59,361 bases of DNA from Longimicrobium sp. (GTDB taxonomy: Bacteria; Gemmatimonadota; Gemmatimonadetes; Longimicrobiales; Longimicrobiaceae): the NCBI GenBank assembly GCA_036389795.1, contig DASVWD010000136.1, positions 1 to 59,361 of the forward strand, given 5' to 3'. Position numbers and translations under genes: made by a program. The notes below the pieces were generated by a model, which saw only the letters and a list, made by a program, of their open reading frames with translations, was not told the origin of the DNA and did not search any database. Positions 1,096 to 19,165 of this stretch are shown here, one piece after another (positions within the stretch are counted from its first letter, which is position 1; each line of letters opens with the position of its first letter).

Positions 1096-2931
1096 TCACG
1101 CGGCCGAGGCCGCGGCAGCCGGCTGCATCGCTTCCCTCGGGTACCACCGGCCCGACCTCACCACCAGCCACGTCTCCAGCGCCAGCGTGCACAGCAGGTG
1201 CGGCAGGTTCTCCACCTCGCCCTGGCGCGCGCGCTCGACGGCCGCGCGGAGCGCATCGGCGCGCACCCAGCCGGCCCGCGCCACCAGCGGGTCGACCAGC
1301 AGCGCCCGCAGCCGCGGCGCCTCGCGCTGCAGCGCCCACAGCACGCGCGCGTCGATCCCGCCCTTGCCGCGCCGCGCGCGCACCTCCTCGGGGAGCACGC
1401 CGCGCATCGCCTCTCGCAGCACCCACTTGGTGGTCCCCGGACGGGTGCGCAGCGCCACCGGCAGGCCCAGGCCGAGCTCCACCAGCGGGCGGTGCAGGAA
1501 GGGGTAGCGCATCTCCAGCCCCTCCTGGAACGGCCCGCGCTCCAGGAACCCCGCCAGCGCCGCCAGCCCCGCGCCGATCTCGTCCGCCCACACGCGCCCC
1601 CGCCGCGAGAGCGCCCGCCGCGCCTCGGGCGTGCGCTCGCGCATCCCCGTCCGCCGCGCGAACGCCGGCTCCACCCACGGCGGCACCGTGGCGGGCTCGA
1701 GGCGCCGGGCGAGCGGGCGCGGCAGCAGCGGCAGGAGCGCCTCGCGGCCGAAGACGCCGTAGAAGGAGATGCGCTGCGCCACCGCGTGCCGCGTGGCCTC
1801 GCGCGCGGCCTCGCGCACGCGGCCCCTCGCCAGCAGGTCGGCCAGGAAGGTGAGCGGCCCGGCCAGGTAGTGGTCCGACCCCTGCCCCGAGAGGAGCACC
1901 CGCCCCCCGGCGCGGCGGACCGCGTCGCACAGGCGGCGGTCGCGCGTCCAGTAGGGGAAGTGCGGACGCGGCTCGTCGGCCGCCACCGGCGGCGCCCCGT
2001 CGTCCTCCCACGGCCAGGGGTCGCAGAGCGTCTCGTTGCGCACACCCCAGCGGCGGAGCACGGCGCCCGAGAAGCGCGTCTCGTCCCCGTCGCCCAGCGA
2101 GTCGACGACGGTGACCGTCCCGCCCACCCCGCCGGGGACCTCGCCCGCCGCGGCCAGCGCCTGGGCCATGCAGACCACCGACGACGAGTCGAGCCCGCCG
2201 GAGAGCTGCGACCAGGTGTCGGGCCCGCCCGTCAGCCGGCAGCGCACCGCCTCGGCGAAGAGCGCGCGGAAGCGCTCCACCGCCTCGCGCTCGTCCGCGG
2301 CCTCCGCCGGCCGGAAGTCTTCCGCGCGCCAGTAGCGCCGCACCTCCGTCCGCCCGTCCTCGTGCACCAGGATGCCGCCGGGCGGGACGGCGCGGCGCCC
2401 CTCCCACACCGTCCGCTCCGGGTCCGCCAGGCCGCCGGCCAGGAAGCCGGAGACGAACGCCTCGTCGAACCCCGCCCCCTCCGCCAGCGCCTCCAGCCGC
2501 GAGGAGACCAGCAGCGTGCCGCCGACCGACGCGTGGAAGAGCGGGCGGACCCCGAACGCGTCGCGCGCGGCCACCAGGCGGCGGGCGCGGCCGTCCCACA
2601 CCACGAAGGCGAAGTCGCCCAGCAGCGCGGGGACCGCCGCCGGCCCACGCGCCTCGAACGCCGCCAGCGCCACCTCCAGGTCCGGCGCGTCCGCCGCCAC
2701 GGGCCCGGCGCCGCGCAGCACCTCCGCCCGGTTGTCCAGCCGCACGTCCCCCACCGCCGCCAGCGAGCCACGGCGCGCCGTCAACGGACGGAGGAAGGGC
2801 GGCCCGGCGGCGCCCGCGAACCCGTCGGCGGCGAGCGTCGCGTCGACGGGGGTCCCCGTCCGGCGCAGGCGGCGCGCGAGATCGCCCGGGAGCGACGGAT
2901 CGGGCCCGGCGGCGCAGACGAAGGCGCTCAT
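1096..2931 (-). CDS. Lasso peptide macrolactam synthetase (C protein)
   Basis: This 611-residue protein has the architecture of class B asparagine synthetases. An N-terminal Ntn-type domain spans roughly residues 1-200 and an ATP-dependent synthetase domain follows. The pyrophosphate-binding loop SGGLDSSS is at 244-251 and SGQGSD is at 348-353. The residue after the initiator Met is Ser, so the Cys2 nucleophile needed for glutamine hydrolysis is missing. That is the usual state in lasso cyclases, which adenylate the ring Asp/Glu and join it to Gly1. The context (B1, B2 and three precursors) makes this role much more likely than asparagine synthesis. The start ATG overlaps the stop of the B2 gene (ATGA), implying translational coupling. 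Confidence 0.88.
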   Translation of the reverse strand: MSAFVCAAGPDPSLPGDLARRLRRTGTPVDATLAADGFAGAAGPPFLRPLTARRGSLAAVGDVRLDNRAEVLRGAGPVAADAPDLEVALAAFEARGPAAVPALLGDFAFVVWDGRARRLVAARDAFGVRPLFHASVGGTLLVSSRLEALAEGAGFDEAFVSGFLAGGLADPERTVWEGRRAVPPGGILVHEDGRTEVRRYWRAEDFRPAEAADEREAVERFRALFAEAVRCRLTGGPDTWSQLSGGLDSSSVVCMAQALAAAGEVPGGVGGTVTVVDSLGDGDETRFSGAVLRRWGVRNETLCDPWPWEDDGAPPVAADEPRPHFPYWTRDRRLCDAVRRAGGRVLLSGQGSDHYLAGPLTFLADLLARGRVREAAREATRHAVAQRISFYGVFGREALLPLLPRPLARRLEPATVPPWVEPAFARRTGMRERTPEARRALSRRGRVWADEIGAGLAALAGFLERGPFQEGLEMRYPFLHRPLVELGLGLPVALRTRPGTTKWVLREAMRGVLPEEVRARRGKGGIDARVLWALQREAPRLRALLVDPLVARAGWVRADALRAAVERARQGEVENLPHLLCTLALETWLVVRSGRWYPREAMQPAAAASAA

Positions 2932-3335
2932 CCGGCCTGGGCGGGCATGGGGAGGAAGGCGGCGACGGTCTCGGGGTCCTCGTTCACCGGCTCGCCGTCC
3001 AGCTCCACCCAGGCGTGCGCGGCGAAGGGGAAGGGCTGCACCCCCAGCCTGAGCTCGGCGGGAACGCCGCGGCGGCGCAGCAGCACGTACAGCGCGAGCG
3101 ACTGCTCCAGGCACACCGCCCGCCCGGGGAAGAAGGCCGCCGCCACCGCCACCGCGTACGCCGTCCGCTCCGCCAGCCCGCGTGGATCGGCGGGGCCAGG
3201 GCGGACGACGGCGCCCAGGCCGCGCGCCCGCGCCACCGAGCGCCCGAAGCCCCGCGCCTTCAGGTGCAGCCGCACCGCCAGCAGCAACAGCGCCGCGCGC
3301 AGCACGCCGGGCGGCGAGGACCCGCGCGAGCGCAT
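2928..3335 (-). CDS. Lasso leader peptidase B2 (transglutaminase-like)
   Basis: This 135-residue protein matches the stand-alone B2 cysteine protease of split lasso systems. Cys75 lies in CLEQSLALYVLLRRRG, His107 in AHAWVELDGEPVNED, and an acidic residue near 119-120 completes the Cys-His-Asp set of the transglutaminase-like fold. A hydrophobic stretch at about 11-23 precedes the domain. B2 removes the precursor leader after the Thr-x site, with B1 delivering the substrate. Both ends overlap the neighbouring genes by ATGA, so B1, B2 and C form one tightly coupled operon. Confidence 0.87.
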   Translation of the reverse strand: MRSRGSSPPGVLRAALLLLAVRLHLKARGFGRSVARARGLGAVVRPGPADPRGLAERTAYAVAVAAAFFPGRAVCLEQSLALYVLLRRRGVPAELRLGVQPFPFAAHAWVELDGEPVNEDPETVAAFLPMPAQAG

Positions 3336-3655
3336 CACGCCGCCTCCAGCACGCCGAGCGAGACGAGACGCGCCGCCAGCGCCGCCGCGTCGCGCTCCAG
3401 CACCTCGCGCGGGGCCTCGTACTCGGCCTCCAGCGCGTCCACCGCCTCGGCCAGCGTGGCGCCGCCGCCCAGCAGCTCCCACAGGCGCGTCGCCACCTCG
3501 TCCAGCCCGTAGAACTCGCCCGCGCGGTGGTCCAGCAGCACCGTGCGCCCCCCGTCGCGCGTGCAGGTGACGGAAGGCGCCGCGCGGAAGCGCGCGCCCG
3601 GCGCCGGGGCGGGCGCCGCGGCCGAAGCCTGCGTGCGTCGGAAGAGGCGGAACAA
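3335..3655 (-). CDS. Lasso leader-binding protein B1 (PqqD-like RRE)
   Basis: This is a PqqD-fold RiPP recognition element of about 106 residues. The family features are a short beta hairpin (TVLLDHRAGEFYGLDEVATR) followed by helices with LWELL and a C-terminal LVSLGVLEAA. It binds the YxxP region of the three leaders and presents them to B2. The frame has no ATG. TTG 3655 has GGGGAG ten bases upstream and is preferred; TTG 3700 would add 15 residues but lacks a ribosome site. It is the first gene of the locus. Its stop overlaps the B2 start, and the promoter should lie in 3656-3899. Confidence 0.82.
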   Translation of the reverse strand: MFRLFRRTQASAAAPAPAPGARFRAAPSVTCTRDGGRTVLLDHRAGEFYGLDEVATRLWELLGGGATLAEAVDALEAEYEAPREVLERDAAALAARLVSLGVLEAA

Positions 3656-4364: not shown

Positions 4365-4435
4365 GGCCTCACACGGAGGAAACGGAGCTCACGGAGGATT
4401 CTCTCTCCGCTGACTCCGTCGACTCCGTGTGAGGC
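4365..4435. repeat. Inverted repeat, possible terminator
   Basis: GGCCTCACACGGAG at 4365-4378 is the reverse complement of CTCCGTGTGAGGCC at 4422-4435. The loop contains further CGGAG/CTCCG pairs. It lies between engB, whose 3' end is at 4480 on the minus strand, and the lipoprotein gene. A transcription end signal for engB or a dispersed palindrome are both possible. Confidence 0.5.
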
Positions 4436-4479
4436 CAATCAGTTTGGGAGGCCAGTCAGTCTGGAAAGCCTGTGCGGGT

Positions 4480-5160
4480 TCAGCCGCCCTCCTCTCCGGC
4501 ATCGTCCTCCCGGTCTTCGTCCCCCTCCTCCCCGCCCTCTCCCTCGCCCGCGTCGGGGAACAGCAGCGCCGAGAGCGTCTCCAGCAGCTCCTCGCGCCCG
4601 TCGCCCTTGAGCGCCGAGAAGGCGATCGCCTGGTCGGGGTCGATGCCGAGCTTGCGGACGGCCTTGGCGACGGCCTGCTCGCGCGCGGTGCTGCCCAGCT
4701 TGTCGCTCTTGGTGAGCGCGAAGAGCACGGGCACGCCCAGCTCGGCCAGGTAGTCCACCGAGCGCAGGTCGTCCTGCGTGGGCCCGGTGCGCACGTCGAT
4801 GAGCTGCACCACGCCCACCAGGTCCTTGCTGGCCGAGAGGAAGCCGTGGATCAGCGGCTGCCAGCGGTCGCGCAGCTCCTTCGGCACCCGGGCGAAGCCG
4901 TAGCCGGGGAGGTCCACCAGGAAGAAGTCGCCCAGGTCCGAGCGCACGCGGTAGAAGTTGATCTCCTGCGTCTTCCCCGGCTGCTGCGACACGCGGGCGA
5001 TGGCCGTGCGCGTGCGCCCCAGCAGCCGGTTGATCAGCGAGCTCTTCCCCACGTTCGAGCGTCCCGAGAACGCCACCTGGGCCACGCCCCGCGCCGCCTC
5101 GGGCTGGGCCTGCCCGATCTGGCCGATGGCGCCGGCGAACTCGACCGACTTGATCTTCAT
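4480..5160 (-). CDS. engB: Ribosome biogenesis GTPase EngB/YsxC
   Basis: This 226-residue GTPase assists assembly of the large ribosomal subunit in the cytoplasm. Walker A GRSNVGKS is at 33-40, followed by the switch region GKTQEINFY, DLPGYGFARV (G3) and TKSDK (G4). The C-terminus has an acidic Glu/Gly/Asp-rich tail of about 25 residues beyond the normal domain. The start at ATG 5160 is set by homology (MKIKSVEFAG). No Shine-Dalgarno site precedes it; a tandem array of 8-bp repeats runs right up to the ATG. Confidence 0.93.
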   Translation of the reverse strand: MKIKSVEFAGAIGQIGQAQPEAARGVAQVAFSGRSNVGKSSLINRLLGRTRTAIARVSQQPGKTQEINFYRVRSDLGDFFLVDLPGYGFARVPKELRDRWQPLIHGFLSASKDLVGVVQLIDVRTGPTQDDLRSVDYLAELGVPVLFALTKSDKLGSTAREQAVAKAVRKLGIDPDQAIAFSALKGDGREELLETLSALLFPDAGEGEGGEEGDEDREDDAGEEGG

Positions 5161-5310: not shown

Positions 5311-5341
5311 GCGGGGCGCTCCGGAGGGCGGAGCGCCCCGC
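5311..5341 (-). terminator. GC-rich hairpin at end of HTH-like gene
   Basis: GCGGGGCGCTCC pairs with GGAGCGCCCCGC around a short loop, and the hairpin abuts the stop codon region of the minus-strand gene ending at 5342. No T-run follows, so the termination role is inferred from the stem and position. Confidence 0.45.
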
Positions 5342-5725
5342 TCACTCGGGGTCGCGCAGGGCCTGGATCCAGTCGGGGACGGCGCCCTGCTTGGCGTAGC
5401 GGCCGGCGAGGAGGTCCAGGAGCGCCCGCCTTGCCTCGGCGCGGTCGGGCTCGGTGAGCAGGCCTTCGACCAGGAGCGAGAGCGACGCGGCGGCGCTCGC
5501 CTCGGAGACCTCGGCCAGCGAGGCCATCTCGCGCGTGAACCACTCGCGCAGCTTGCGCAGCGTCTGCGCGCGCGGCACGGCGGTGCGCCCGTCGACGAAG
5601 CTCTGCAGCCACGACGGCGCCATGTCCATGGCGTCGGCCACCTTGCGCAGCGAGGTGCGCTCCACGGCGCGCGCGGCGGCGTAGCGCAGCGTCTCGACCG
5701 AAACGCTCGCCCGGGGAGGGCGCAT
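5342..5725 (-). CDS. Small HTH-like protein, function unknown
   Basis: The product has 127 residues. Residues of about 14-45 (LRYAAARAVERTSLRKVADAM and the following SWLQSFVDGRT) resemble a Cro/XRE-type helix-turn-helix in which the second helix follows SLRKVADAMDM. The C-terminal half is helical and acidic. The ATG at 5725 lies five bases after GGGGAGG; a GTG one codon earlier is too close to that site. The AT-rich patch at 5767-5800, with GTGTA repeats, is the likely promoter region. It could be a small regulator, but no partner or operator is evident. Confidence 0.6.
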   Translation of the reverse strand: MRPPRASVSVETLRYAAARAVERTSLRKVADAMDMAPSWLQSFVDGRTAVPRAQTLRKLREWFTREMASLAEVSEASAAASLSLLVEGLLTEPDRAEARRALLDLLAGRYAKQGAVPDWIQALRDPE

Positions 5726-5872
5726 CACGCCCTCCCCGCCGGGGCGGCACGGCCCCGGTGTTCTCTTTGTACACTATGGTTTCTTTTACACTCGGAAGAC
5801 TACGGCCTCAACGGCGTTCCAACAAGAGCGCTGATTTCGGGCGCATCTGTGCACTCTGTTCACTTTCGTGAC

Positions 5873-6085
5873 GGGAGAGTACGAAAGTACGGAGTACGGG
5901 AATGTCGCGCGCCGAAGTTCGTAGGGTCGAGGCATGCCTCGACCGTCGGATGCTCGCCGTGCACCAATACCTGGGGACTCGCCCCTGCAAGCCAACCATC
6001 ACCACGAACGAAAACGCGCGAGGGCGGCTTCTCCGGCCGCCCTCGCGCTTTCGTACTCCCGTACTTTCGTACTCCCGTACTTCTT
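5873..6085. repeat. Palindromic element with AGTACGG arrays at both ends
   Basis: Units of AGTACGA/AGTACGG at about 5878-5900 face inverted copies (CCGTACT/TCGTACT) at 6050-6083. Between them, 5918 onwards (TTCGTAGGGTCGAGGCATGCCTCGACCG) matches the first part of the large dispersed repeat seen at 32822, 41285 and 55544, so this may be a truncated copy. No gene lies in 5726-6089. Confidence 0.65.
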
Positions 6086-7400: not shown

Positions 7401-8027
7401 TCAGCGGGTCTCGGCCACGGCGTGGGCCACCTCGACCACCTGCCCGCGGTGCTGGATCACGTGGTCGAGCAGGCCGTAGTCCTTCGCCTCCTCGGGGCTC
7501 ATGAAGCGGTCGCGGTCCAGGTCCTCGGCGATCTTCTGGGGCGTCTGCCCCGTGTTGTCGGCGTAGATCTGGTTCATCCGCTCGCGGATGTACAGGATCT
7601 CGCGGGCCTGGATCTCGATGTCGGCCGCCGTCCCCTGCCCGCCGCCCGAGGGCTGGTGCAGCATGATGCGGCTGTTGGGCAGGGCGAAGCGCTTGCCCTT
7701 GGTCCCCGCCGCCAGCAGGAAGCTCCCCATGCTCGCCGCGATCCCCATGCAGTAGGTGTTCACGTCGCAGGAGAGGAACTTCATGGTGTCGTAGATGGCC
7801 ATCCCCGCGTACACGCTCCCGCCGGGGGAGTTGATGTACAGGTAGATGTCCTTCTCCGGGTTGTCGGCCTGGAGGAAGAGGAGCTGCGCGATGATGACGT
7901 TGGCGACGTCGTCGTTGATCGAGCTGCCCAGGAACACGATGCGGTCCATCAGCAGGCGCGAGAAGATGTCGTAGCTCCGCTCGCCGCGGCTGGAGCGCTC
8001 GATCACGTACGGCGCGTAGATCGGCAT
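7401..8027 (-). CDS. clpP: ATP-dependent Clp protease proteolytic subunit ClpP
   Basis: ClpP (208 residues) is a serine protease that forms the double-ring chamber docked to ClpX. The catalytic triad is visible: Ser99 in [11 protein letters not shown], His124 in IMLHQPSGG and Asp173 in DRDRFMS. The glycine-rich SPGGSVYAG segment is intact. Start ATG 8027 ([15 protein letters not shown]) fits the family; longer in-frame extension is not needed. The order tig-clpP-clpX is the classic arrangement. Confidence 0.97.
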
Positions 8028-8122
8028 GGTGCCTCGTTTTCCGTCTCTCGGGGTTTTCCGCTCTTGCCCCCACGCTCCCGGCGCGGCGCGCCTCGCGTAC
8101 ACCGCCCGGGGCGGCGGGTTCG

Positions 8123-9421
8123 TCAGCCCAGCGTGTTCTGCTGCCGGAGCCAGTCGAACACCTTGTCCTCGGTGATCTCGGCCTCCAGCGCCTGCATCTG
8201 CCCGCGCTTCTCCAGCTCCAGCCACACGTCGCTCTCGGTGCGCCCCTGCGCCCGGGCGATCCGCTCCACGCGCTCGTCCACCTCGTCCTGCGTGGCGCGC
8301 AGCCCCTCGCGGTCGGCCAGGTGCTCGATCACCAGGATGCGCTTGAGCGCGGCCTCGGCCTGCGGGCGCATGATCTGGCGCAACTGCGAGATCCGTTCCG
8401 CCTGCTCGGGGGTGGGCTCCGGCCGCTTCCCGCCGCGGTCGGGGTCCAGGCCCATCATGAAGTCCAGGTAGCGCGCCACCATCGACTCGGGGACCTCGAT
8501 GGGGTTGGCCTCGACGATCTGCCCCACCAGGGCGTCGCGCACGGCCTGCTCGGCGCGGCGGCGGGCGTCGTCCTGCAGGTCGGCGCGCACGCGGGCCCTG
8601 AGCGCCTCCAGGGTGTCGAACTCGCCCAGCGACCGCGCGAGCTCGTCGTCGAGCGCGGGGAGCTCGCGGCGGCGCACCTCGTCCAGCCGGATGCGCATCT
8701 TCTGCGTCTGCCCGCGCAGCTCCTCCTCCACGTAGTCGTCGGGGAAGGTGACGTCGAACTCGCGCTCCTCGCCGGGGAGGAGCTGCATGATGGCGCGCTC
8801 GATCGGCTCGATGGCCTGCCCCTCGCCCAGCGCGAAGCGGTACGGCTGCGGCTCGGCGTCCTCCTGGTCGAGCGCGGTGATCTCCACCACCACCTCGTCG
8901 CCCTCCCCGGGGCTCGCGCCCTCGACGGGGTGCAGGGCGGCGCGCTCGGCGCGCAGCCGCTCCAGCACGGCGTCCACCTCGGCGTCGCCCACCTGCTCGG
9001 AGGGGCGGGGGACCACGAAGCCGCCGGTGCGCGCCAGGGAGAGCTGGGGCTGCACCTCGAACTCCACGTCGTAGTGCAGCTCGCCGCCCTGGCCGTGGTA
9101 GTGGAGGTTCTGCACCTCGCCCTGGTTGATCGGCTGCAGTCCCTGGCTGTCGAGCGCTTCCCGGTAGGTGTCCTGGATCACCTTCTCGACGGTCTGCTGC
9201 TCGATGGCCGCGCCGAACTGCTTCTCGACCAGCCCCTCGGGGATCTTCCCCTTGCGGAAGCCGGGCATGCGCACGTTGCGCGCGTACTGCGCGGCCACCG
9301 AGCGGCGGATCTTCTGCACGCGCTCGCCCGGGACCACGATGGAGAGGCGCCGGCTCGACGACGAGGGCTCGCTGACGGTGACGGTGAGGTCGGTGCCGCT
9401 GGTGGTGGTTTCCGCTGCCAT
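8123..9421 (-). CDS. tig: Trigger factor, ribosome-bound chaperone
   Basis: Trigger factor (432 residues) folds nascent chains at the ribosome exit tunnel. The N-terminal ribosome-binding domain carries the signature [13 protein letters not shown] at about 49-61. A central FKBP-like domain has [16 protein letters not shown], and a helical C-terminal arm follows. Start ATG 9421 is 28 codons inside the open frame; the extra upstream part overlaps the tRNA-Leu gene and is not coding. Two other neighbours on this strand, clpP and clpX, complete a folding/degradation cluster. Confidence 0.96.
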
Positions 9422-16368: not shown

Positions 16369-16545
16369 CTACGAGCCCGACCCGTAGTAGCCGTCCGGAC
16401 CGCGCGTGCCGAGCGAGAACGGGCGCCGGGCCGGCGGGAACGGCGGCAGCTCGGCAGCGCCCGGCCGGGGCTGTCCCGGCGCTCTCGTCGCCCGGGGAGC
16501 CTCACCGCCCGCAGGCACAGGCTCGGTTCCCTCCACATCCCCCAT
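16369..16545 (-). CDS. 58-residue peptide ending GYYGSGS
   Basis: The frame starts at ATG 16545, nine bases after AAAAGGAG, and stops at TAG 16369-16371. The first part is Pro/Gly/Ala/Arg-rich; the end is RRPFSLGTRGPDGYYGSGS. The last seven residues follow the same pattern as the ends of the two 46-residue lipoproteins at 18334 and 18859: [GN]-[WY]-x-G-S-x-[HS]. No signal peptide is present. It could be a signal-peptide or modified-peptide precursor. Being short, it may also be chance; the ribosome site, terminator and tail motif argue for a real gene. Confidence 0.45.
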   Translation of the reverse strand: MGDVEGTEPVPAGGEAPRATRAPGQPRPGAAELPPFPPARRPFSLGTRGPDGYYGSGS

Positions 16546-17006
16546 GAGGCTCCGCTCCTTTTCGGCTGAGCGTGGGCAAGGATCGGGACGCCCGGCCCTG
16601 GTGTGTGCCGACAGGGCGTAGCTACCGCGCGCGTTGCCGCGGCGGTCACAGCCGAGCCCCCAGCACCGGGCGTCCCGATCCGCAGCACACGCCCGTCAAC
16701 GGCTCTGTCGGGGCATGCGCCGACACTGGCGCGTGACAGTAGGGTAAAAGGCGGAATAGGTGCGTGAAAGGGATAGACACGAAGCGGCCGGGGGCTTTCC
16801 CGCGGGAAGACGCCCCCGGCGCAATCCCGGGCATTTCGATTCTCCGACCGCTACCGATGGGACAGGGGCGGCGAACGGGCCCGGCGAGCTCGACTGGCTT
16901 GCCCGGGTCCGTTTCACGCCATATCGTCCACGGAGAGCACCGCGCTGTCGCTTCCCGCCGCCTTCGCCTCCGCACCACCCGGAGGCGCTGACTCCTGGTT
17001 CAACGC
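16546..17006. other. Non-coding region upstream of TPR gene
   Basis: No gene is recognised. It must contain the promoters of the minus-strand 58-residue peptide gene and of the plus-strand TPR gene. An AT-richer patch at about 16735-16770 (AGTAGGGTAAAAGGCGGAA) may be promoter DNA. Confidence 0.4.
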
Positions 17007-18293
17007 ATGACAAAGCCCCAGAGCCCGAGACGACGCCCGCGTACCGAGTTCCGTGTGCCGCCCCCGCTGGTGCAGCGCATCGACGCGGCAGGCTTCACCG
17101 GGTCCGATCTGTTAGACGACGAAAACGGACCGTCCGCGCTCGTGTTCTGGCAGTGCTACCGCGACGTGGAGCTCTGGGCGCGAGCCGGTGTCCGCGAAGG
17201 CCTGTTTCGACCGGGACGAGCGAAAGCCCGCGCCGGCGAGATCGAAGCGCTGGACCAGGCCGCTCTCGCGGAGGCGAAACCGCACCTGGCCGCGCTGCTG
17301 GAGGTGGTGCGCTGCCCCGAGGCCGCCGAGGCTTCGCGGATCGCGGACGCGTGCTCCGCGCTGGCCGGGTGGTTCGAGGGACGGGGACGGCTGCGCTGCG
17401 CGGTGGATTTCGCGGTATGCGCGTACCTCGCGAGTCCGCGGCAGGCGGGGCTCGCGGTCCGCGTGGCGCGGCTCACGCGAGTGCTCGCCGAATATCCACG
17501 CTCCACGAGCTGGTTCGACTACTCGATCTATCTGGCGCGGAAAGCCCACGACTGGCAGGCGTATGCCGAAGCGCTCGCAGGGCTTGGGAACCTGTACTTC
17601 CAGCTCGGCAACTTCCCGCGAGCGAGACACTATCACCGGCGCTGCCTGCGGGCCGCGACCCGCAACCATCTGCGCGAGATGGCCGGTGCGGCATATCACA
17701 ACCTGTTCGTCCTGGAAATGGATGCCGGCAACGTCGAGCTGGCGGAGAGCCTCGCGGCCAGGGCGTTTGCCTCATACGGACCGACCTCGCCGTCCGTCGC
17801 GAGACTCGCGCGCGACCTCTCGCGGCGCTGGACCGTTCTCGGACACTTCGAGCGATCGTTGCCGCTGGCGCTGGAAACCCTCAACCACTTCTCGACGCCT
17901 GCAGACCGGGCTCTGGTTTGGGCGGACGTTGCGCGTGCTGCCGGAGGTGCCGGACAGATAGCGATCTTCGAAGACGCCTGGGCTGAATCCTGGACTCTTG
18001 TCCGGCGGGGAGTGACGGACCCCGTCACCGCTGACGTGTTGATCGACCTTGCGCGCGGCGCAGCCTCCCTCGCCCAAGTGCGCCGGGCCGCGCATGCAGC
18101 GGGTAAGGCACTCGAAGTCGCGCGCCAGAGAAAGGAAGGGCGTACGGTCCTCGAAGCAGAATCCTTGTTGGACAGCTTACATCTCCAGACTCCGGAACCT
18201 CACCCCACCGGGCTCCCCACGACCGAGCAGTTGCCGGAGCTGGCCGGCGGCATTCTACGGGCGCTGCGAGAATTGCGCGCGGCAGCGGTGTAG
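17007..18293 (+). CDS. TPR-repeat protein, possible peptide sensor
   Basis: The product has 428 residues. From about 160 on it is a series of helix pairs; the clearest TPR is AYAEALAGLGNLYFQLGNFP near 190-210, and further units continue to about 390. The N-terminal ~150 residues are helical without an obvious HTH. No signal peptide or membrane span is seen, so it is cytoplasmic. TPR arrays commonly bind short peptides or protein tails. The gene is bracketed by three tiny peptide genes on the opposite strand with a common C-terminal motif, which suggests, but does not prove, a receptor/ligand relation. The start ATG 17007 lacks a strong ribosome site. Confidence 0.75.
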   Translation: MTKPQSPRRRPRTEFRVPPPLVQRIDAAGFTGSDLLDDENGPSALVFWQCYRDVELWARAGVREGLFRPGRAKARAGEIEALDQAALAEAKPHLAALLEVVRCPEAAEASRIADACSALAGWFEGRGRLRCAVDFAVCAYLASPRQAGLAVRVARLTRVLAEYPRSTSWFDYSIYLARKAHDWQAYAEALAGLGNLYFQLGNFPRARHYHRRCLRAATRNHLREMAGAAYHNLFVLEMDAGNVELAESLAARAFASYGPTSPSVARLARDLSRRWTVLGHFERSLPLALETLNHFSTPADRALVWADVARAAGGAGQIAIFEDAWAESWTLVRRGVTDPVTADVLIDLARGAASLAQVRRAAHAAGKALEVARQRKEGRTVLEAESLLDSLHLQTPEPHPTGLPTTEQLPELAGGILRALRELRAAAV

Positions 18294-18296
18294 CCA

Positions 18297-18640
18297 CGCC
18301 GCCGCGCGCGACCGCTCGGAAAACGACAGGGGATCAGTGCCCGCTCCCCAACCACCCGCCGGCATCCTTTGCGGGGGTCGACGGCGCCACCTGGGGTCCA
18401 ACCGGGTTTTCGCTTCTGCACGCGGCTGTGATGAGCACGAGCAGAAGTGATGCGGTAATGATGCGGAGCTTCATCTTGCTTCCTCCGGTAAAGTAAGTGA
18501 CCCTCGCGCGCAGGACTTTCCCGCGCGGAAGCAAGATAGTGCCGCCGCACCTGGAACGCCGCTCATTTTGCGTCTGGGGACCTTCGCTAAGTAACCAGAG
18601 TGCCGGTCTGCCCGTCCGGCGGGGCGTGGGGAGAGGTGCG
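18297..18640. repeat. Duplicated unit, left copy
   Basis: This segment matches 18822-19165 at an offset of 525 bp. The match includes the whole peptide gene, its ribosome site, a leader with GCGCGCAGGACTTTCCCGC, and the upstream block GCCGCTCATTTTGCGTC. The 180 bp between copies is unrelated and shows no gene. Confidence 0.75.
18334..18474 (-). CDS. 46-residue exported peptide, copy 1 (ends WLGSGH)
   Basis: ATG 18474 is preceded by CCGGAGGAAGCAAG, a strong ribosome site. MKLRIITASLLLVLITAAC is a signal peptide ending at a lipobox-like TAAC, so processing at Cys19 would leave a 28-residue lipopeptide CRSENPVG...AKDAGGWLGSGH. It is a paralogue of the gene at 18859: the N-terminus, the ENPVGxQV segment and the AK(D/E)AGxW tail match, and the flanking DNA is also duplicated. 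The T at -3 of the lipobox is atypical, so simple secretion is also possible. It lies convergent to the TPR gene, 40 bp away. Confidence 0.75.
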   Translation of the reverse strand: MKLRIITASLLLVLITAACRSENPVGPQVAPSTPAKDAGGWLGSGH

Positions 18641-18821
18641 TGGCGCGCTTGCGGGGAAAGCGCCGGGCGGGTGTTCAGGTCGGAATCGCCTCGCGTCCAT
18701 CCACGCCGTCGCGAGTGGCGCAGAACTCCAGCGAAGCCGACGCGCTGGGCGGCCGGCCTCGACTGACCCGTGGTCGGACCTGGGACTGCGGGCGTAAAGG
18801 AGCGACGCGCGGCCGCCGTTC

Positions 18822-19165
18822 AGCCGCCGCGCGCGAGCCGCTCCCGAAGAGATGGGGGTCAGTGATCGCTTCCCATCCAGTTGCCGGCCTCCTTCGCCGC
18901 GGGGGATGGTGACACCTGGGATCCGACCGGGTTTTCGCCTGTGCACGCGGCAGCGGCGAGCACGAGCAGGAGCGATGCGGCGGCGACGCGGAGCTTCATC
19001 TTGCTTCCTCCGGTGAAGGTAGGTTGACGTTCGCGCGCAGGACTTTCCCGCACAGAAGCAAGGTAGCGCCGCCACATCCGGAATGCCGCTCATTTTGCGT
19101 CCGGAGACCTTCGCGAAGCAGCCAGAGTGCGGGTCGGCCCGTCCGGCGGGGTGGGAGGCTGCCGC
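18822..19165. repeat. Duplicated unit, right copy
   Basis: The second copy of the unit at 18297-18640. Conservation outside the coding part, especially the TTCGCGCGCAGGACTTTCCCGC leader and CCGCTCATTTTGCGTC, suggests shared promoter or leader function or a recent duplication. Confidence 0.75.
18859..18999 (-). CDS. 46-residue exported peptide, copy 2 (ends WMGSDH)
   Basis: ATG 18999 follows CCGGAGGAAGCAAG. MKLRVAAASLLLVLAAAAC is a signal peptide with lipobox AAAC, leaving a 28-residue mature part CTGENPVG...AKEAGNWMGSDH. It has the same length as copy 1 and about two thirds of the residues are identical. Substitutions are mostly conservative (KDAGGWLGSGH against KEAGNWMGSDH), which indicates selection on the protein rather than drift. 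It has its own leader region, so it is probably expressed separately from copy 1. Confidence 0.77.
   Translation of the reverse strand: MKLRVAAASLLLVLAAAACTGENPVGSQVSPSPAAKEAGNWMGSDH

Follow-up and report, generated by a model that had tools for sequence, protein, structure and literature searches.

A TPR protein gene with convergent, tailed lipoprotein genes points to a probable Rap-Phr-like peptide-signalling module in Gemmatimonadota

We analysed a window of 59,361 nucleotides from Longimicrobium sp. (contig DASVWD010000136.1 of assembly GCA_036389795.1, forward strand), in which a gene for a tetratricopeptide repeat (TPR) protein lies tail to tail with a duplicated gene for a small lipoprotein that ends in a short, distinctive tail. 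This convergent pairing recurs across the phylum Gemmatimonadota, commonly with a third gene encoding a protein with an AraC-type helix-turn-helix (HTH) domain. On balance, we think it probable that these genes form a receptor-propeptide-regulator module working like Rap-Phr of Bacillus, in a diderm phylum. The features of the window on which this reading turns, with coordinates counted from its first letter, are as follows.

17007 to 18293, plus strand: TPR protein gene, 428 amino acids (aa), receptor-like, open reading frame (ORF) confirmed.
18334 to 18474, minus strand: small, propeptide-like lipoprotein gene, 46 aa from its ATG, lipobox by regular expression, tail ending DAGGWLGSGH.
18337 to 18357, minus strand: tail codons GWLGSGH, read from the sequence.
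18859 to 18999, minus strand: second copy of the lipoprotein gene, 46 aa, lipobox by regular expression, tail ending EAGNWMGSDH.
18862 to 18882, minus strand: tail codons NWMGSDH, read from the sequence.
18329 to 18583, no strand assigned: duplication unit 1 (coding part 18329-18493, upstream part 18498-18583).
18854 to 19110, no strand assigned: duplication unit 2 (18854-19018 and 19025-19110).

The window TPR protein scores above the cut-off for Pfam TPR_12, and no signal peptide was seen in it. The nearer lipoprotein gene converges on it across a gap of 40 bp and has a GGAGG resembling a ribosome-binding site before its ATG; here and throughout, signal peptides and lipoboxes were called with our own regular expression, not with SignalP. 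The two lipoproteins are paralogues with 67% identity, and their genes arose by one tandem duplication of the DNA (165 nt at 80% and 86 nt at 86%), so that they count once. RNA folding between the TPR gene and the lipoprotein gene is not unusual (z -1.09) and revealed no strong terminator, and apart from the ribosome-binding site no promoter motif common to the lipoprotein genes was found. An earlier, sequence-only reading of this DNA had described three small products ending in [GN]-[WY]-x-G-S-x-[HS], and all three tails (GYYGSGS, GWLGSGH and NWMGSDH) do fit this pattern exactly. Its division of the products into two that are exported or lipidated and one without a signal peptide agrees with our regular-expression calls, although the lipidated two are duplicates of each other. 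The view that the three genes are independent carriers of one motif had to be abandoned, because two are recently duplicated and the third encodes a different, non-exported protein, described further below.

The pairing was quantified over TPR genes matching at E below 1e-20 with room downstream (n = 96), a partner being a convergent lipobox ORF at -60 to 400 bp, with 312 other ORFs of at least 250 aa from the same loci as controls. A convergent small lipoprotein gene accompanied 65/96 TPR genes compared to 14/312 controls (odds ratio 45, p = 2e-37, a value that treats loci as independent, although the linkage counts are not phylogenetically independent). Since loci were chosen by TPR score, the sample is not random. 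Convergent lipoproteins with a GSG-like tail were found beside 40 of the 96 TPR genes and none of the 312 controls, which answers in the affirmative whether, as the sequence-only reading had expected, tailed small genes are enriched near TPR genes in other genomes. The association is specific to the convergent side, as the divergent upstream side carried a lipobox ORF at only 5/96 TPR genes compared to 38/312 controls. Among distant loci, mostly of the same class and overlapping the 96-gene set, 18 of 20 showed the convergent lipoprotein, as did 17 of 20 central TPRs in loci fetched later and unused in finding the pattern (17/21 TPR ORFs when the second one in L290 is counted). In a 71-pair set, seven partners that the strict rule had overlooked or that lay near contig ends were added by hand and a doubtful candidate in L120 was dropped; the counts of 65/96 and 14/312 predate these edits. 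The lipoproteins measure 41-150 aa, 69 of the 71 being no longer than 100 aa, and the gap to the TPR gene ranges from -51 to 274 bp, with overlapping genes (a negative gap) in 13 of 65 cases. A reverse profile search starting from the lipoproteins (150 of 306 candidates scored) was discarded as support because it is mostly circular, its 18 best places being training genes.

Clustering of neighbouring genes identified the third recurrent element, an AraC-type HTH protein some 280 aa long, encoded on the TPR strand just past the lipoprotein gene; HTH_18 (Pfam) was present in 14/14 aligned members. This gene lies within 700 bp downstream, on the same strand, of 49/94 TPR genes and 2/270 controls, a count that is partly circular, as the HTH family was defined by adjacency. 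Less circular are the later-fetched set, with the gene beside 18 of 21 TPRs, and the window's genome, in which 7 of 9 matches to the HTH family adjoin TPR paralogues; of the remaining two, the one on C241 is without a TPR in the part examined. Among the first distant TPRs, 16/20 likewise have it as a neighbour. Because both linkages recur, we take the common module to be the TPR gene, the convergent lipoprotein gene and the HTH gene. A receiver-like N-terminus of the HTH protein, a by-eye impression, was dropped after Pfam and PDB profile searches gave no support.

The window's genome (7.5 Mb, 285 contigs) yielded 23 matches to the TPR protein, 21 of which were taken as family members, giving around 20 paralogues, and most of these have a convergent lipoprotein gene in the same place. 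Within the phylum, the TPR profile matched at least 116 of 395 genomes at E 1e-10, with up to four candidates scored per genome, and all 15 genomes of the window's own taxonomic family among the matches listed do so strongly. Profile comparison shows the close and distant TPR groups to be clearly one family (probability 99.9, E 4e-33). Gemmatirosa kalamazoonensis KBS708 has one pair on each of two plasmids, with tails ending CDATQPWWLC and CCVQPWY; other plasmid matches to the family are weak. Searches of phages and viral contigs returned no match to the window TPR, and phage carriage is thus not supported. As a separate observation, a pseudopilin-like gene of about 142 aa, judged by eye, lies divergently upstream of the TPR gene in L166, L168, L171, L172, L174, L175 and L176.

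As a bare pattern in DNA, the tail is not above chance, since the reversed pattern matches the genome nearly as often (51 matches compared to 59), and it was rejected as evidence in that form. In the lipoproteins themselves, the tails are regular. Those of the window's genome typically read R/K..GGxxGSGx or a variant, are sometimes repeated and in one case occur in about six copies. In the close family, GS/T-G/D/S is found in the mature part of 50/53 lipoproteins, within three residues of the C-terminus in 41 of them, with G, S and G at positions -4, -3 and -2 in 42, 37 and 41 of the 53, respectively. The extreme C-terminal position is not essential, as the GGGLMGSGT motif is internal in the near-identical loci L106 and L107. 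Tails are clade-specific (GxxGSGx, FVNPNV, SNTCH, QPWY), distant clades having tandem FVNPNV, two copies of SGHQGSGT or NWQGSGT, SNSNTCH, three copies of GGSQPWY, or KPWG. Of the 65 linked lipoproteins, 15 have repeats at the C-terminus; of the 76 remaining lipobox ORFs in these loci, a single one does, and it adjoins a distant TPR homologue. A basic residue stands no more than six residues before the last core in 29/50 close-family lipoproteins, compared to 26% of background windows, and would suit release by a protease. Over the 71 pairs, the higher the identity between TPR proteins, the higher that between tails (Mantel r 0.44, p 0.0005), a relation that is weaker for signal peptides (r 0.29); pair-specific recognition is thereby plausible across long distances.

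Two lipoprotein loci were noted in addition to these pairs. L270 contains near-identical tandem lipoprotein genes (5322-5501 and 5834-6019, minus strand) with tails CRNGMLGSGTRC and no TPR-family or HTH-family match in 11 kb, and L227 (7125-7436, plus strand; the same as L161 1213-1524) encodes a lipoprotein in which GxxGSGT is repeated five or six times, the 15 kb examined there containing no TPR-family gene.

The AlphaFold model of the window TPR protein is all-helical, with a mean pLDDT (predicted local distance difference test) of 90.3; for a distant TPR, modelling from one sequence reached pLDDT 53, and the result was set aside as too poor. In VIA-align, model residues 40-378 aligned to RapH (Z 20.6, 323 residues), and Rap or NprR accounted for 15 of the 50 rows. 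The N-terminus has no HTH by Pfam; it is helical and falls within the RapH alignment, though helical repeats align easily, and for that reason we read the fold match as a shared arrangement rather than as descent. At the sequence level, the TPR family profile matched nine Rap proteins (probability 95.7, E 8.9e-9, 142 columns), though not in the register of the single-sequence match. Conserved positions in the family include D270 (21/21) and H231 (20/21), with D or N at 232 in 17/21. RapF Asn227 is the strictly conserved groove Asn by which RRNPP receptors hold the peptide backbone (PMC3601957), and its Rap3T counterpart, N226, is invariant in the nine Rap proteins. Position 232 aligns with Asn227 in the single-sequence register and not in the profile register, so its possible identity with this groove Asn is a lead, not proof. 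RRNPP systems have been defined by a receptor of 250-500 aa, a propeptide of 10-100 aa and a gap of -60 to 400 bp (PMC10075063), limits within which the window pair falls at 428 aa, 46 aa and 40 bp, and the Sec-type export signal of RRNPPA propeptides is present at the window as a lipobox called by regular expression. The earlier comparison with RRNPP-type systems is thus strengthened by gene layout, size, tandem tails, fold and the adjacent HTH gene of the module, while the motif it had pointed to proved to be one of several clade-specific tails. Our best reading is that the module is Rap/Phr-like, which stops short of placing it in RRNPPA.

Beyond the gene layout, each step of the mechanism is one that we infer. 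The small gene product would be a lipoprotein precursor, exported by Sec and processed by signal peptidase II, as the lipobox suggests. The tail at its C-terminus, present one to six times, would be freed by proteases, often near Arg or Lys, and the short peptide would return through a peptide importer of the ABC (ATP-binding cassette) type; the window's genome has five genes for SBP_bac_5 peptide-type binding proteins. In the cytosol, fold, conservation and linkage suggest that the peptide would bind the TPR protein whose gene lies tail to tail with that of its precursor, in the concave groove. The TPR protein would then alter the activity of a partner, which, judging from linkage, is most likely the AraC-type HTH protein encoded, in many loci, past the lipoprotein gene. 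At the window, where the duplicated propeptide gene has no neighbouring HTH gene, the output would act in trans.

Several observations weigh against this mechanism. Both the lipid anchor and the outer membrane stand in the way of a peptide's release and re-uptake. By the strict rule, 31/96 TPRs have no convergent lipoprotein, and tailed lipoproteins with no TPR nearby exist (C157 twice, C141). The window and 4/5 other TPRs in the third group scored for the HTH gene lack that gene, and it is absent at L209. Among 17 pairs from the window's genome, tail similarity does not track TPR similarity (r -0.19, p 0.86), so that specific recognition is plausible over long distances, a case that does not extend to paralogues. 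As for the fold, LGN TPR domains top the VIA-align results (Z 22.5), LGN and other eukaryotic TPRs scoring as high as Rap; no Rap appears among the best 50 Foldseek rows, and the sequence can be aligned to Rap in more than one register. The 31 TPRs with no partner include an orthologous group, in L027 and L073-L078, beside which no lipoprotein was seen; most of its members keep the HTH gene, and they could be orphan receptors. As a side observation, in L026 a repeat-tailed lipoprotein gene (1620-1889) is co-directional with a more distant TPR gene (2046-3389, both on the minus strand), breaking the convergent layout.

The same genes could be explained with no peptide leaving the cell, if the TPR protein bound the precursor's tail before export and either reported export capacity or held the precursor back. 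The lack of a signal peptide on the TPR protein, the presence of the tail on the precursor from the start, and the convergent, sometimes overlapping genes, which would suit local regulation, all agree with such sensing. Yet the tandem copies, linkers and basic residues before the core resemble release sites, and export monitoring leaves the clade-differing tails and the presence of around 20 pairs within a single genome unexplained; we regard it as unlikely. A chaperone or targeting role for the TPR protein, serving a structural surface lipoprotein whose tail would be a sorting or assembly motif and with HTH linkage reflecting expression control, appears less likely still. TPR domains often bind C-terminal peptides, and the fold matches include APPBP2 bound to its RxxGP degron. 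However, most of the lipoproteins measure 41-100 aa, and Pfam recognised no folded domain in the ones checked; from clade to clade, moreover, the tail changes sharply within an otherwise constant layout.

A further alternative arises from one locus, L126, in which the TPR gene belongs to a lasso-peptide cluster.

107 to 2857 and 4371 to 4544, minus strand: L126 TPR gene and lasso-type precursor gene, the precursor convergent and ending AGYLGSGG.

The cluster encodes the lasso enzymes (B1, B2 and C), with Asn_synthase (PF00733), Transglut_core3 (PF13471) and PqqD (PF05402), and the precursor has a leader that we take to be of the lasso type. The tailed products might accordingly be precursors of ribosomally synthesised and post-translationally modified peptides (RiPPs) or antimicrobials, with the TPR protein as a maturation, immunity or control factor. 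This is a single locus, though; the other partners have lipobox signals, their recurrent neighbour is the HTH protein and no enzyme, and Pfam finds no enzyme domain in the TPR family, leaving a RiPP role similarly improbable. In L126 a lasso precursor shares the tail of the lipoproteins and has a neighbour from their TPR family, which suggests that the tail can ride on another kind of carrier. This L126 partner, which keeps its tail while lacking a Sec signal, also agrees with the pre-export sensing considered above. Returning to the receptor-propeptide-regulator module, its broadest form would be a pheromone system across a diderm phylum, with dozens of channels per cell, each made up of a TPR receptor, a tandem-tail lipoprotein and an AraC-type regulator, evolved apart or far back from Firmicutes RRNPPA and with lasso peptides recruited at least once. 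We put this forward tentatively, at a little under an even chance.

The third small ORF of the window lies upstream of the TPR gene.

16369 to 16545, minus strand: third small ORF, divergent from the TPR gene, 58 aa, no signal peptide, tail ending PDGYYGSGS.

Of 21 family genomes searched, 2 matched it: the window's own, with one convincing paralogue at C285:10797-10922 (E 3.6e-10; 71% identity across query 9-57), and G180, with a borderline match (E 0.00998). In L040, a free-standing TPR-family N-terminal piece (7853-8314), a small HTH-like ORF (8327-8731) and the third-ORF paralogue (about 8900-9088) follow one another on the plus strand. The N-terminal piece is also a profile hidden Markov model match, the HTH matches of its neighbour are weak and below cut-off, and the family of that HTH-like ORF recurs near other TPR genes of the window's genome.

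If the module works as proposed, peptide signalling would extend to diderms, in a phylum that is widespread in soil and has been little studied, raising the question of how a peptide crosses the outer membrane in both directions; the tails would be directly testable peptide ligands, and many 'hypothetical' lipoproteins and TPR proteins of the phylum would gain a name. Intracellular peptide quorum sensing of the RRNPPA or Rap/Rgg type has been described from Bacillota (PMC9765709, PMC12700828, PMC10075063), and in one open-access literature library we found no publication on such a system in Gemmatimonadota. Lipoboxes, repeats and an opposite-strand layout are not new in themselves, because RRNPPA precedents exist: about 8% of RRNPPA propeptides carry a signal of the lipobox type, and pseudo-repeats have been described. 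As in the module, the regulator and peptide genes of TprA2-PhrA2 in Streptococcus pneumoniae lie on opposite strands (PMC5436883), though TprA2 is itself a transcriptional regulator, whereas the Gemmatimonadota TPRs tested have no HTH by Pfam. Phr3T and Phr105 likewise hold several pheromone copies per precursor (PMC11343458), but these are phage-borne in Bacillus, in contrast to the lipoproteins on mostly chromosomal-type contigs described here. The overlap with lasso-peptide clusters lies in one locus, L126, which combines the enzymes with a precursor of the same tail and a TPR neighbour, unlike the window, whose small genes have a lipobox and no lasso leader. Compared to Rap-Phr, the module belongs to a diderm phylum, its precursor gene is convergent rather than co-directional, lipobox precursors are the rule (compared to 211/2,734 in RRNPPA), an AraC-type HTH partner is encoded in the same locus, and sequence kinship past the TPR repeats is not shown. 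What it shares with Rap-Phr is a TPR protein of the cytosol, about 380-430 aa long and helical towards its N-terminus, an adjoining gene for a tiny exported precursor that is sometimes duplicated and has its signal at the C-terminus, many pairs per genome, and an HTH regulator as the likely target, as ComA is in Bacillus.

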